From Sulfurimonas sp. (GTDB lineage: Bacteria; Campylobacterota; Campylobacteria; Campylobacterales; Sulfurimonadaceae): a stretch of DNA of 57,452 nt. The translations under genes and the position numbers were made by a program. This document shows, piece after piece, positions 25,600 through 30,410 of this stretch. The notes under the pieces are model-generated. The model ran no database searches. It saw only the letters and a list, made by a program, of their open reading frames with translations, and was not told the DNA's origin. The first letter of the stretch is position 1. Each line of letters begins with the position of its first letter. The stretch is from contig NZ_JALXBK010000074.1 of assembly GCF_026991475.1 (NCBI RefSeq), positions 1 through 57,452 of the forward strand. The letters run 5' to 3'.

Positions 25600-25673
25600 A
25601 AATGCAAATATAGCATTATTTATAATAATTTATGTTAATATCTTTACATTATTTTTTTGAAAGGAAGAATCTG

Positions 25674-26159
25674 ATGTTATTAGAGATGAAAGAGAATGAC
25701 TTCATTGTATCTAAAACAGATACAAAAGGTCGACTGACTTATGTCAATGAGATATTTATGACTATGGCAGAGTACACAGAGAAAGAACTACTGGGTAAAC
25801 CTCACAATATAGTTCGCCACCCTGATATGCCAAAAACTGTTTTCAAACTGCTTTGGGATCGTATTCAAAACAAAGATGAAATTTTTGCCTATGTTATCAA
25901 TAAAACAAAAAATGGTAACGGATACTGGGTCATTGCCAATGTTACGGCTTCAACAAATGACAGAGGCGATATTATTGGTTACTATTCAGTAAGAAGAAAG
26001 CCAAAAGAGAGTGCTCTTGAACTCATTAAACCTCTCTATGACAAAATGCTTCAAGCTGAACGCAGCGGTGGAATTGCTGCTGGAGAGAAAGTGTTAAACG
26101 ATTTACTATTTGAAAAAGGAGTCTCATATGATGAATTTATCATCTCTATTCAAAAATAA
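25674..26159 (+). CDS. PAS-domain redox sensor, CetB/Aer-like
   Basis: A single PAS domain of Aer type fills the protein: [38 protein letters not shown] and [28 protein letters not shown]. The [10 protein letters not shown] motif is typical of FAD-binding Aer PAS domains. I place the start at ATG 25674 (AAAGGAAG upstream); the longer frame from 25632 adds an unlikely 14 residues. It overlaps the following chemoreceptor by 32 bases, the arrangement of the Campylobacter CetB/CetA energy-taxis pair. Confidence 0.82.
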
Positions 26160-27573
26160 ACAGGCACTTCTGCTTTTTGTAACACTACTAGGTGCTTCAA
26201 TATATGCTCTCGTAGTTGCAAGTTATATTTTTGCTATCATTTTATTTGTGCTTTTGCTTATCTCTTTGTTTATGCCTTCAGATGCAGGAGCAGTAAAATC
26301 AACAGGCCTAATACATACAATGAAAAAAGTTGTAGATGCTGCGGCACAAGGTAACCTTGAGGGACGTATTACACACATCCCAGAAGATAATTCTGAAATA
26401 TCAGCCTTTGCATGGTCTATTAACAATATGTTAGACCAGACAGAAGCCTTTATGCGTGATGCAACAACTACTATTGAAGCTGCTTCAAATGGCAAAACAT
26501 ATAGAGTCTCCTTTCCACAGGGTCTTCATGGAATCTATAACTATGCATCTTCAAAAGTGAATGCTGCAATCACTTCCATTGCAAGCGGATATGAGACAAA
26601 AATGCTCGGCGAACTCTCTGCACAATTTACAAAACTTGGTGGTGGTGTAGCACGAGGACTTGGAATTTTACAAACAGACCTACTACAGTCCTCTGATAAT
26701 GCAAAGGCAATTGTAGATGTATCGGCACAAACAGCAGACCAAGCTGCTGAAAACCTCTCTAATGTTGTAGATATTACACAAAGACTCTCTACTCTCGTTG
26801 AGCTTATTGCCTCTTCACATGAGGGAATTATTAGCCTTGAGGGACGCTCTCGTGAAATTTCTGAAGTTGTAGGGCTCATTAAAGATATTGCAGACCAAAC
26901 AAATCTTCTTGCATTAAACGCAGCCATAGAAGCTGCTCGTGCAGGTGAACATGGTCGTGGTTTTGCCGTAGTTGCTGATGAAGTTCGTAAACTTGCAGAG
27001 CGTACACAAAAGGCAACAAATGAGATAGAAATCACCATCTCAACACTACAACAAGAGGCAAACGATATGCGTGGAAACTCTGATGAAATAAGTAACATCG
27101 CACAAGAGTCAAACTCTGCCATCAATGAGTTTGAAAATGCCTTTACAGAGCTTAACTCACTAGCTAAAGGCTCAAATACTGTTGCAATCAGACTCCAAAA
27201 CCGTCTCTTTACAACACTTGTCAAAGTTGATCATATTCTCTTTAAATCAAAAGCTTACTCTTCAGTACTTTCACAAGACAAAAATGCAGAGTTCCCTGAC
27301 CACCTTAACTGTCGTCTTGGAAAATGGTATCAAGGTGCTGGTGCAGAGCGCTTTGGTAAAACACCATCATTTAAAGCCATGGATGCAGCTCATTCAGTTG
27401 TACATAATAGCGTCTTTAAGAATATGGTTTTCGTACATGATGGTACGGTTCTTAAGTATGACCATCCTCAACAAATTACACAAAACTTTACAATAATGGA
27501 GGACTCATCCCTTAAACTATTTAGTGAACTTGATGCAATGTTGGATGAATATGAGGAATTACGAAAAGAATAA
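26128..27573 (+). CDS. Chemoreceptor, CetA-like, with C-terminal CZB zinc-binding domain
   Basis: The start is ATG 26128 with AAAGGAG before it. Two adjacent membrane helices (about 10-50) with almost no periplasmic loop anchor a HAMP-like region and a signalling hairpin with the usual [20 protein letters not shown] tip. It should take its signal from the PAS protein encoded just upstream. The C terminus adds a CZB domain: [16 protein letters not shown] and AAHSVVH give the H/C/H/H zinc site. The combination of an Aer-type input with a zinc-binding domain suggests redox plus zinc or hypochlorite sensing. Confidence 0.85.
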
Positions 27574-27605
27574 GTAGTATTTACCAAACATTAACTTATA
27601 ATTAT

Positions 27606-27611
27606 TATAAT
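27606..27611 (+). promoter_or_regulatory. TATAAT -10 element of the candidate small RNA
   Basis: A TATAAT within a run of AT lies just after the cetA-like gene and would start an RNA near 27617. Confidence 0.45.
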
Positions 27612-27616
27612 TTCAG

Positions 27617-27716
27617 CATCTCAATTATGTTTTCCCCCTTTCATAAGAAGAGATAAATACTCCTATAAATTTTTAAAACAGCTGGGTTTTCCCCCTTTTT
27701 ACTCTCAGCTGTTTTT
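27617..27716 (+). ncRNA. Candidate ~100-nt small RNA with C/U-rich loops (RepG-like)
   Basis: The 184-base gap after the chemoreceptor has no ORF but has a -10 element, about 60 bases of leader and a strong intrinsic terminator. The same C/U-rich string (TTTTCCCCCTTT) occurs twice: unpaired at 27630-27641 and in the terminator loop at 27687-27698. H. pylori RepG controls the chemoreceptor mRNA tlpB through just such a loop. Here CCCCUUU could pair with AAAGGGG (29314-29320), the ribosome-binding site of the soluble chemoreceptor 1.6 kb downstream. It could instead be only a terminator with a long 3' end of the cetA-like mRNA. Confidence 0.5.
27675..27716 (+). terminator. Strong intrinsic terminator with pyrimidine loop
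   Basis: AAAACAGCTG (27675-27684) pairs perfectly with CAGCTGTTTT (27706-27715), ending in a T-run. The loop of about 20 bases is almost entirely C and U. Confidence 0.8.
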
Positions 27717-27757
27717 CTTCCTAACTTTTTCATTCAAACTTATGCTAAACTTCTTTT

Positions 27758-29269
27758 ATGAAAATTATTCTCTCTACACTTAACTCAAGATTTACTCATA
27801 GTGCCATTGGACTTCGTTATATCTATGCAAATATGCAAGAACTTCAAAGTGATACAACAATTTTAGAATTTAGCATTAATGATGCTATACAGACTATTGC
27901 CGAAAAGCTTTTACATAATGCTCCAGATGTCATAGGGCTGGGGGTTTATATTTGGAATGCTTCTCATATTCGTGAGCTTATTCACATACTTAAAAAAGTA
28001 TCTCCCCAGACTATTGTCGTTCTTGGTGGTCCAGAAGTAACCTACCTGCCGTTTCGTGTCAATTATGATGATGCAGATTACATCATTCAAGGTGAGGGAG
28101 ATTTAGCCTTTTACAACTTATGCAAAAACATCATCTCAAAAACGCCACAAGAGCGCATAAGCAGAATGAGCCTGCCAAATTTAAAAGAGATAAAACTTCC
28201 TTACAAATACTACACAGATGATGACATCAAAAACCGTTATATATATGTGGAAATTTCTCGTGGTTGTCCTTTTGAGTGTGAGTTTTGTCTCTCCTCTATG
28301 GATGAAAAAGTACGTGCTTTTAATCTTGATGAAGTATTAAATGAGTTTGAAATACTTTGGCAGAGAGGGGCTAGAAACTTTAAATTTGTAGATAGAACTT
28401 TTAACTTAAATATGAAATCAGCTAACAAAATTTTAGACTTCTTTTTAGCAAAAGAGCCACCATATTTTGCTCACTTTGAAGTTATACCCGACCACTTTCC
28501 AGCTTCACTTAGAGAAAAAATTCAACGCTTCCCTCATGGAGCCTTGCAACTTGAAATAGGCATACAAACACTCAATCTTGAAATAGCAAACAACATCTCA
28601 AGACAACTCAAACTTGATAAAATAAAAGAGAATATTAAATTTTTAGAGAATGAAACGACGGCACATATTCATCTTGATTTAATTGTAGGTCTTCCAGGAG
28701 AAAGCCTAGAGAGTTTTGGAGCAAATCTTGATGAGTTAATGCAGATGAGTAGTTGTGAGATACAAATAGGCATACTCAAAAAACTCTCAGGAACACACAT
28801 CACACGCCATGACATTACTCATGGTATGGTCTATAGCGATATTCCTCCTTATGATATTTTAAAAAATTCCAATCTTAGTTTTGAAGATATTCAGATTATG
28901 AAACGATTTTCACGATTTTGGGATTTGTTTTACAATAGCGGCAACTTTAAAAGCTCTCTACATCTCCTTTGGGATGAAGAGAGTGAAAAGCCACAAGTCT
29001 TTAAAAATTTTTACGCTTTTGGTTTGTGGATATATGAGAAGACAGATTCTACTTGGAAAATCTCACTCCAAAGACAAGGTGAACTTCTTTTTGACTATCT
29101 CAGCGGAGTTAAAAAACTCGAAGCAGAAATCATCGCAGATAAAATGCTTAGTGATATGATGAAACTAAAGGGTCGTGCAATTCCAAGCTACCTTAAACCC
29201 TATGCAGTAAATTTTCAGCTAAATGCAAAGCTAGGAACTTCTGGTTTTAATAAAAGGCAAAATATTTAA
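27758..29269 (+). CDS. B12-binding-domain radical SAM protein (DUF4080 type)
   Basis: The 503-residue protein begins with a cobalamin-binding-like Rossmann domain (about 1-130, with GLGVYIWNA and VVLGGPEVTY) and continues with a radical SAM core whose C-x3-C-x2-C cluster is RGCPFECEFC near 168-177. A C-terminal DUF4080-like region follows. Substrates of this class are unknown; many modify tetrapyrroles, lipids or tRNA. It would use the cofactor made by the cluster at the left of the window. Confidence 0.82.
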   Translation: MKIILSTLNSRFTHSAIGLRYIYANMQELQSDTTILEFSINDAIQTIAEKLLHNAPDVIGLGVYIWNASHIRELIHILKKVSPQTIVVLGGPEVTYLPFRVNYDDADYIIQGEGDLAFYNLCKNIISKTPQERISRMSLPNLKEIKLPYKYYTDDDIKNRYIYVEISRGCPFECEFCLSSMDEKVRAFNLDEVLNEFEILWQRGARNFKFVDRTFNLNMKSANKILDFFLAKEPPYFAHFEVIPDHFPASLREKIQRFPHGALQLEIGIQTLNLEIANNISRQLKLDKIKENIKFLENETTAHIHLDLIVGLPGESLESFGANLDELMQMSSCEIQIGILKKLSGTHITRHDITHGMVYSDIPPYDILKNSNLSFEDIQIMKRFSRFWDLFYNSGNFKSSLHLLWDEESEKPQVFKNFYAFGLWIYEKTDSTWKISLQRQGELLFDYLSGVKKLEAEIIADKMLSDMMKLKGRAIPSYLKPYAVNFQLNAKLGTSGFNKRQNI

Positions 29270-29327
29270 GTTTTATATGTTAAAATGTTTGAAGTTAATA
29301 TAATAGAAAAATTAAAGGGGAGCAGTA

Positions 29328-30410
29328 ATGTTTGGATGCAGTGCAAAGATAGAAAAGCTTGAAAAAGCCTACAAAGAGAGAATAACAGGTCTTGAAGAGG
29401 AAAACACTTCACTAAGAAATCAAATTCATCAACTTCAATCAACTCAAAATGTCATAAAATCAGAAGATACACAAGATAATCGTCTTGAAAATATTGTTAT
29501 CAACAGTTATAGTAGTGGTACACATTTCCTACAAGGAACTATAGAAGAGAACCTTGAGAAACTTGAAGAGATAAACGAGCTTAATGCAAAAACAAACAAT
29601 AGAATGATAAATATCAATAGCCAAACGCAGGAGATCTCTTCTACTATTGAAAACATTCAAGAACATGCAAATACTCTTGGAGATGATTCAAATTCACTTA
29701 ACGATAGTGTAATGTCAATTGCAGAGATTATTAACCTCATTAAAGACATTTCAGATCAAACAAACCTTCTTGCACTAAACGCAGCTATAGAAGCAGCACG
29801 TGCAGGTGAGCATGGTCGTGGATTTGCCGTGGTTGCTGATGAAGTAAGAAAACTTGCAGAGCGTACACAAAAAGCAACTCAAGAGGTAGAGATAAACATT
29901 AATGGTCTTAAACAAAACTCTAACTCTATGATGGAAATCAGCAACACATTTGCCGATGAGACAGGTAAAGTGATGGAAATTCTTGATATCTTTGGTGAAA
30001 ATATCTCTATGGTTGTACAAAACAGTAATGAGATAAAAGCAAAAACAGAAAACCTTACAAATGAGTTTAATGTAAGTAATGGAAAAATCGACCATATCGC
30101 ACTCAAAATCATCGCTTACAAAGCTATTATGGCAAAAGAAGAAGTAAGCATAGCAGATGAAAATAGCTGTCGCTTTGGCAGATGGTTCGCTCAAGTCTCA
30201 TCAACGCTCATGAAAGGAAACTCACATATAGCAAGCATATCAAAACATCATGCAACGGTCCATCAAGGTCTTAAATCAGCAATGAAAGAGGCAAAACAGG
30301 GTGACTTAAACGCAGCACTTGACTTGCTCGAAAAAGTAGAACATTCAAGCGAGGTAGGCTTTGAAGAGTTACTCACTGCAGTACAAGAAGCAACTGCAAA
30401 AAACAAATAG
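29328..30410 (+). CDS. Soluble chemoreceptor with CZB domain (TlpD-like)
   Basis: The 360-residue protein has no membrane helix. A short N-terminal coiled coil ([20 protein letters not shown], about 9-28) leads to the signalling hairpin and a C-terminal CZB domain with [15 protein letters not shown] and KHHATVH zinc ligands. This is the layout of H. pylori TlpD, a cytoplasmic sensor of oxidants and energy state. A TATAAT at 29299-29304 leaves a leader of about 17 bases with the unusual ribosome-binding site AAAGGGGAG. Confidence 0.87.

Follow-up and report, generated by a model that had tools for sequence, protein, structure and literature searches.

Between an MCP gene and a gene for a B12-binding radical SAM protein, a Sulfurimonas genome carries a short interval that resembles a transcription unit of its own, which raises the question of whether it encodes a regulatory RNA and, if so, which gene such an RNA would control. 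The window, i.e. the whole stretch of DNA that was analysed, comprises 57,452 nucleotides. According to a preliminary description, the interval holds a promoter-leader-terminator unit with two C5 strings, one of them in the terminator loop, and would give rise to a RepG-like small RNA acting on the MCP gene at 29328.

Structure and conservation of the small RNA gene

The sequence turned out to be as described. After the TATAAT element the leader carries TTTTCCCCCTTT with a C5 string at 27634-27638, the same string that lies in the loop of hairpin 1, and the second C5 string (27691-27695) is located in the loop of a strong hairpin with a TTTTT tail behind it. This second hairpin was overlooked by a simple scanner because its loop exceeds the terminator loop limit of 8 nt. 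The parts of the gene are the following:

27618-27716, plus strand: small RNA gene of ~100 nt (extent of the model match), based on genome homology, covariation and covariance-model matches
27606-27611, plus strand: -10 element TATAAT, read from the sequence and conserved in the matrix of 70 homologs; predicted start at ~27617-27618
27618-27654, plus strand: hairpin 1 of the fold, loop UUUUCCCCCUUU
27659-27671, plus strand: single-stranded linker ACTCCTATAAATT, conserved in the 70-homolog alignment and unpaired in the fold
27675-27715, plus strand: hairpin 2 of the fold, terminator-like, loop with CCCCCUUUUU

The predicted fold has an energy of -21.2 kcal/mol (z = -3.6), which was equalled by one of 200 shuffles. 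The linker is a possible third contact of the RNA; its CUCC, retained by some of the homologs, may be compared with the C-rich single-stranded motif of the LhrC RNAs (see below).

A DNA search of the genus yielded homologs at E < 1e-4 in ~110 of 135 Sulfurimonas genomes, nearly always at the same genomic place, indicating that the RNA locus is not due to chance. Searching with a covariance model added a few further genomes and, for nearly every genome scanned, gave a single credible match; another genus of the family yielded low-score matches (E 0.002-0.006), here too located ahead of the radical SAM gene. The named records with the hairpin belong to Sulfurimonas and its relatives. In a Hydrogenimonas MAG (L139 / L122) the RNA and the PAS-MCP neighbourhood share one short contig, which may be a misbinned Sulfurimonas contig.

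Comparison of 30 diverse homologs unveiled changes on both sides for 13 of the 19 pairs; hairpin 2 contributes every one of its 11, each with compensatory changes, and hairpin 1 contributes 2 of its 8. Paired cells amounted to 97.2%, compared with 82.7% in shuffles and 37-53% for slid structures, and the covariation score of 0.454 (0.175 in shuffles) was reached by none of 500 shuffles. The loop sequences, on the other hand, are conserved more than the stems in the set of 70 homologs: CCCUUU occurs in the loop of hairpin 1 in 68 and in that of hairpin 2 in 66 of them, and in both hairpins U-runs surround a string of C4-5, which is followed by UUU. Loops that stay constant while the stems change are the pattern expected of a seed that is displayed by a hairpin. 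The small RNA candidate with C/U-rich loops had been made dependent on conservation of the C-rich loop in relatives, and both loops have indeed been kept.

Some variation was observed nevertheless within the relatives. The C run of hairpin 1 has grown to 9 and 7 in L070 and L066, respectively, as if it were prone to slippage. A peptide encoded in hairpin 1 (MFSPFHKKR) was considered and rejected, as the C run (3-9) and the T run vary by single bases and the frame is lost. Furthermore, in L042, L044, L047, L050, L052, L053, L067, L069 and L071-L073 hairpin 2 has no U tract, with the C-rich loop mostly kept; termination must differ there, or the RNA is processed.

No Rfam family reached its threshold anywhere in the window, and no sRNA of Sulfurimonas is described in the open papers searched. 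We regard the RNA as real and as representing a family of sRNAs that seems not to have been described so far, although its kind is known.

Promoter and neighbouring genes

The promoter and the genes flanking the RNA comprise the following features:

27580-27595, plus strand: direct repeat TTTAC-N6-TTAAC with an 11-bp period in place of a -35 element; putative site of an OmpR/PhoB-family response regulator
25674-26159, plus strand: PAS-domain gene (CetB-like; Pfam PAS), the predicted principal target, with G-rich ribosome-binding sites in relatives
26128-27573, plus strand: MCP gene with a CZB domain (CetA-like partner; ORF and Pfam), its start overlapping the end of the PAS gene
27758-29269, plus strand: gene of the B12-binding radical SAM protein (DUF4080; Pfam, 67 homologs), apparently leaderless

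A distance of 11 bp between repeats located directly upstream of the -10 element is typical of OmpR/PhoB-family regulators. The RNA promoter carries such an 11-bp direct repeat, TTWAC-N6-TTWAC, whose columns are conserved among the 70 homologs at -37..-33 and -26..-22 (e.g. T 66/70, T 68/70), as is TATAAT at -11..-6. The RNA is probably transcribed from its own promoter under an OmpR/PhoB-type response regulator. HP1043/HsrA of H. pylori binds TTTAAG-N5-TTTAAG immediately above the -10 element; the two sites share direct repeats 11 bp apart in this position and the lack of a -35 element, whereas their bases agree only in part (PMC5253667). A scan of the own genome for a regulon with this promoter repeat resulted in four sites compared with one in the control, and no clear regulon emerged. 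A PerR-type box, TTATAATTATTATAA, lies over the -10 element at 27596-27610, a perfect 15-base match and the sole exact copy in the genome. A PerR box promoter would be expected to show TTATAATnATTATAA recurring before peroxide genes; the match is degenerate in many relatives and did not exceed the control pattern in 26 genomes, which makes a PerR box at the RNA promoter doubtful.

On the downstream side, nearly all relatives have TATGCTAAACTTC directly before the ATG of the radical SAM gene (27741-27758) with no Shine-Dalgarno sequence, and the gene seems to be leaderless in them.

With respect to its position, the RNA could also be read as part of one of its neighbours. The radical SAM gene is located just downstream in most genomes, the second genus included, and some relatives show no terminator U tract, as might be expected if the element were a cis-acting leader or attenuator of that gene and not a separate sRNA. 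We consider this reading very unlikely: in 67 homologs a conserved -10 element of its own (TATGCTAAACT, 27741-27751) precedes the radical SAM gene, which has no Shine-Dalgarno sequence, and the RNA is kept where the gene lies 250-2000 nt further away or is absent (L010, L013, L014, L017, L018, L023, L066, L048 and L059). The RNA is likewise kept where the PAS-MCP pair is not upstream, and its persistence without either neighbour indicates an independent unit instead of a leader. The same persistence bears on a reading in which the locus, following directly after the MCP stop codon, merely provides the PAS-MCP transcript with its 3' end and its terminator, the C-rich loops being incidental and without a regulatory role. 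Such a transcript end would have to carry its own conserved promoter with a regulator-like repeat, as well as loops that are more conserved than the stems, and we give this reading hardly any credence.

Candidate targets and proposed mechanism

Within the window, the following sites are complementary to the loops of the RNA:

25658-25664, plus strand: TGAAAGG of the PAS leader, predicted to form 7 bp with CCUUUCA in hairpin 1
29314-29320, plus strand: AAAGGGG ribosome-binding site of the MCP gene at 29328, candidate secondary target at the species level (duplex -11.5 kcal/mol)

Within the window, the PAS site UGAAAGG (AAAGGAAG) offers a 7-bp match only, with -9.8 kcal/mol, better than 97.7% of the background. 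The relatives are more telling. Among 57 relatives with the RNA adjacent, AGGGG occurs in the Shine-Dalgarno region of the PAS gene in 21, compared with 4 of 259 background genes taking the first ATG (p ~5e-14) and 6 of 259 taking any ATG (p ~1e-12). The full AAAGGGG precedes the PAS gene in 11 of the 57, and by our own estimate ~0.6-0.9% of genes elsewhere; the median duplex energy is -9.4 kcal/mol as opposed to -4.1 kcal/mol for the background. As the PAS gene was chosen once four genes of the neighbourhood had been inspected, and as the sequences share ancestry, these p values are too small and not to be taken literally. The starts of the background genes are also approximate, but the effect is large enough that the enrichment should survive both this and the choice among four genes. 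The PAS tree requires no fewer than 16 changes of the GGGG state, and the enrichment is consequently not one inherited event. None of 21 PAS homologs from genomes in which the RNA was not found has GGGG, some of these homologs being distant or in incomplete assemblies; since RNA presence changes only three times on the tree, this contrast lends weak support. The GGGG site is present in only 37% of the relatives, the PAS leaders reach at most 5 G, and the Shine-Dalgarno forms differ among species (AAAGG in some, AAAGGGGG in others). Where the RNA survives with no PAS-MCP pair directly upstream, there are other targets or the pair has moved.

For the MCP gene at 29328, the seven-base match of CCCCUUU to AAAGGGG proposed earlier is real, and within this genome the duplex ranks in the best 1.2% of background genes. 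The leader of ~17 nt ascribed to this gene is plausible in view of a TATAAT at ~29300, its start being predicted only. In addition, a second MCP gene, C77 (L094, G000:C77), has an AAAGGGG ribosome-binding site, giving two of the eight MCP genes of the genome; both may be further targets here. These matches would fit a RepG-type RNA with control of MCP 29328 as its main job, for which we see a slim chance. MCP 29328 as a conserved target had to be rejected: AAAGGGG is absent from nearly all orthologs, which carry AAAAGGA-type sites with GGGG in 2 of 30 and a median duplex energy of -4.8 kcal/mol, equal to the background, while the loops of the RNA are still conserved. Moreover, the gene lies outside the conserved neighbourhood of the RNA. 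From the sequence comparisons, the PAS gene appears to be the better-supported target of the two.

A further reading takes the trans-acting sRNA and its C-rich anti-Shine-Dalgarno loops to be real, yet assigns to the RNA a broad and shifting set of targets, comprising envelope and secreted proteins and taxis receptors, of which the PAS pair would be one of many or none. In LhrC and RsaE, similar loops act on numerous targets, and in the own genome AAAGGGG precedes about a dozen real genes, many of them secreted or membrane proteins. Hardly any orthologous AAAGGGG set is common to several genomes, as a shifting target set would have it; seven further genomes gave small clusters only (an ATP-grasp-like protein, MCPs and a DsrE-like protein, the site of the latter overlapping the coding end of the preceding gene). 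A purely diffuse set, however, would not be expected to place the PAS gene of the relatives far above background, and we hold this reading to be less likely, though not negligible.

With moderate confidence we therefore favor, among the readings weighed here, 27618-27716 as a trans-acting sRNA for which the PAS gene of the PAS-MCP pair is the most consistent target, its Shine-Dalgarno region being blocked. According to this proposal, an RNA of ~100 nt, transcribed from its own promoter and probably under an OmpR/PhoB-type response regulator, would display one CCCCUUU seed twice, once in each hairpin loop. Either loop could cover G-rich Shine-Dalgarno sites and thereby prevent ribosome binding. 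Translation of the PAS gene would be lowered and, owing to the overlap of the two genes, that of the MCP as well.

Related systems and possible significance for energy taxis

RepG of H. pylori acts with one loop on a variable repeat of 7-12 G in the tlpB leader (PMC8295292). The present RNA likewise belongs to the Campylobacterota, has a C/U-rich terminator loop and is predicted to act on the G-rich leader of a taxis gene, but it presents two loops, and its counterpart is a Shine-Dalgarno sequence of 2-5 G with no long homopolymeric G repeat (PMC8295292). The loci differ as well, RepG being encoded beside hp1043 and the present RNA between the PAS-MCP pair and the radical SAM gene (PMC8295292). 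Of the RepG-like architecture suggested at the outset, the mode of action, a C-rich loop on the G-rich leader of a taxis gene, remains plausible and the C-rich loops are conserved, while membership is not supported in view of the missing Rfam hit and the other neighbourhood.

The LhrC1-5 sRNAs of Listeria monocytogenes target Shine-Dalgarno regions and are controlled by the LisRK two-component system (PMC4132741). They share with the present RNA the order of hairpin A, single-stranded stretch and terminator hairpin as well as repeated C-rich motifs in both loops; in contrast, the RNA described here is single-copy, comes from another phylum and carries CCCCUUU in place of UCCC (PMC4132741). In a scan with lax thresholds the LhrC model RF00616 was the best family for the stretch, reaching 25.5 bits at a cut-off of 110. 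LhrC thus appears as the closest analogue by architecture and RepG as the closest by setting, and judged by the criteria applied the RNA belongs to neither of them.

CetA/CetB is the energy-taxis pair of Campylobacter jejuni, in which a PAS-only protein has an MCP as its separate partner (PMC2628428). The two genes upstream of the RNA share this arrangement; the MCP here differs by its CZB domain, and the pair is CetA/CetB-like by gene layout. It is possible, and proposed here only tentatively, that a genus-wide sRNA sets the level of this neighbouring energy-taxis pair and that a G run of 2-5 tunes the control between species. The two seed loops would then be redundant, and the G-run length in the PAS Shine-Dalgarno sequence would be a species-level counterpart of the RepG/tlpB rheostat. 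To our knowledge, no sRNA control of CetA/CetB is known.

Chemolithotrophs of the genus Sulfurimonas are common at vents and in redox gradients, where reaching the right redox level by swimming is of central importance. If true, a conserved sRNA linked to an energy-taxis pair through both its location and base complementarity would represent a directly testable control point. It would also suggest that control of taxis genes by C-rich loops arose more than once in Campylobacterota.
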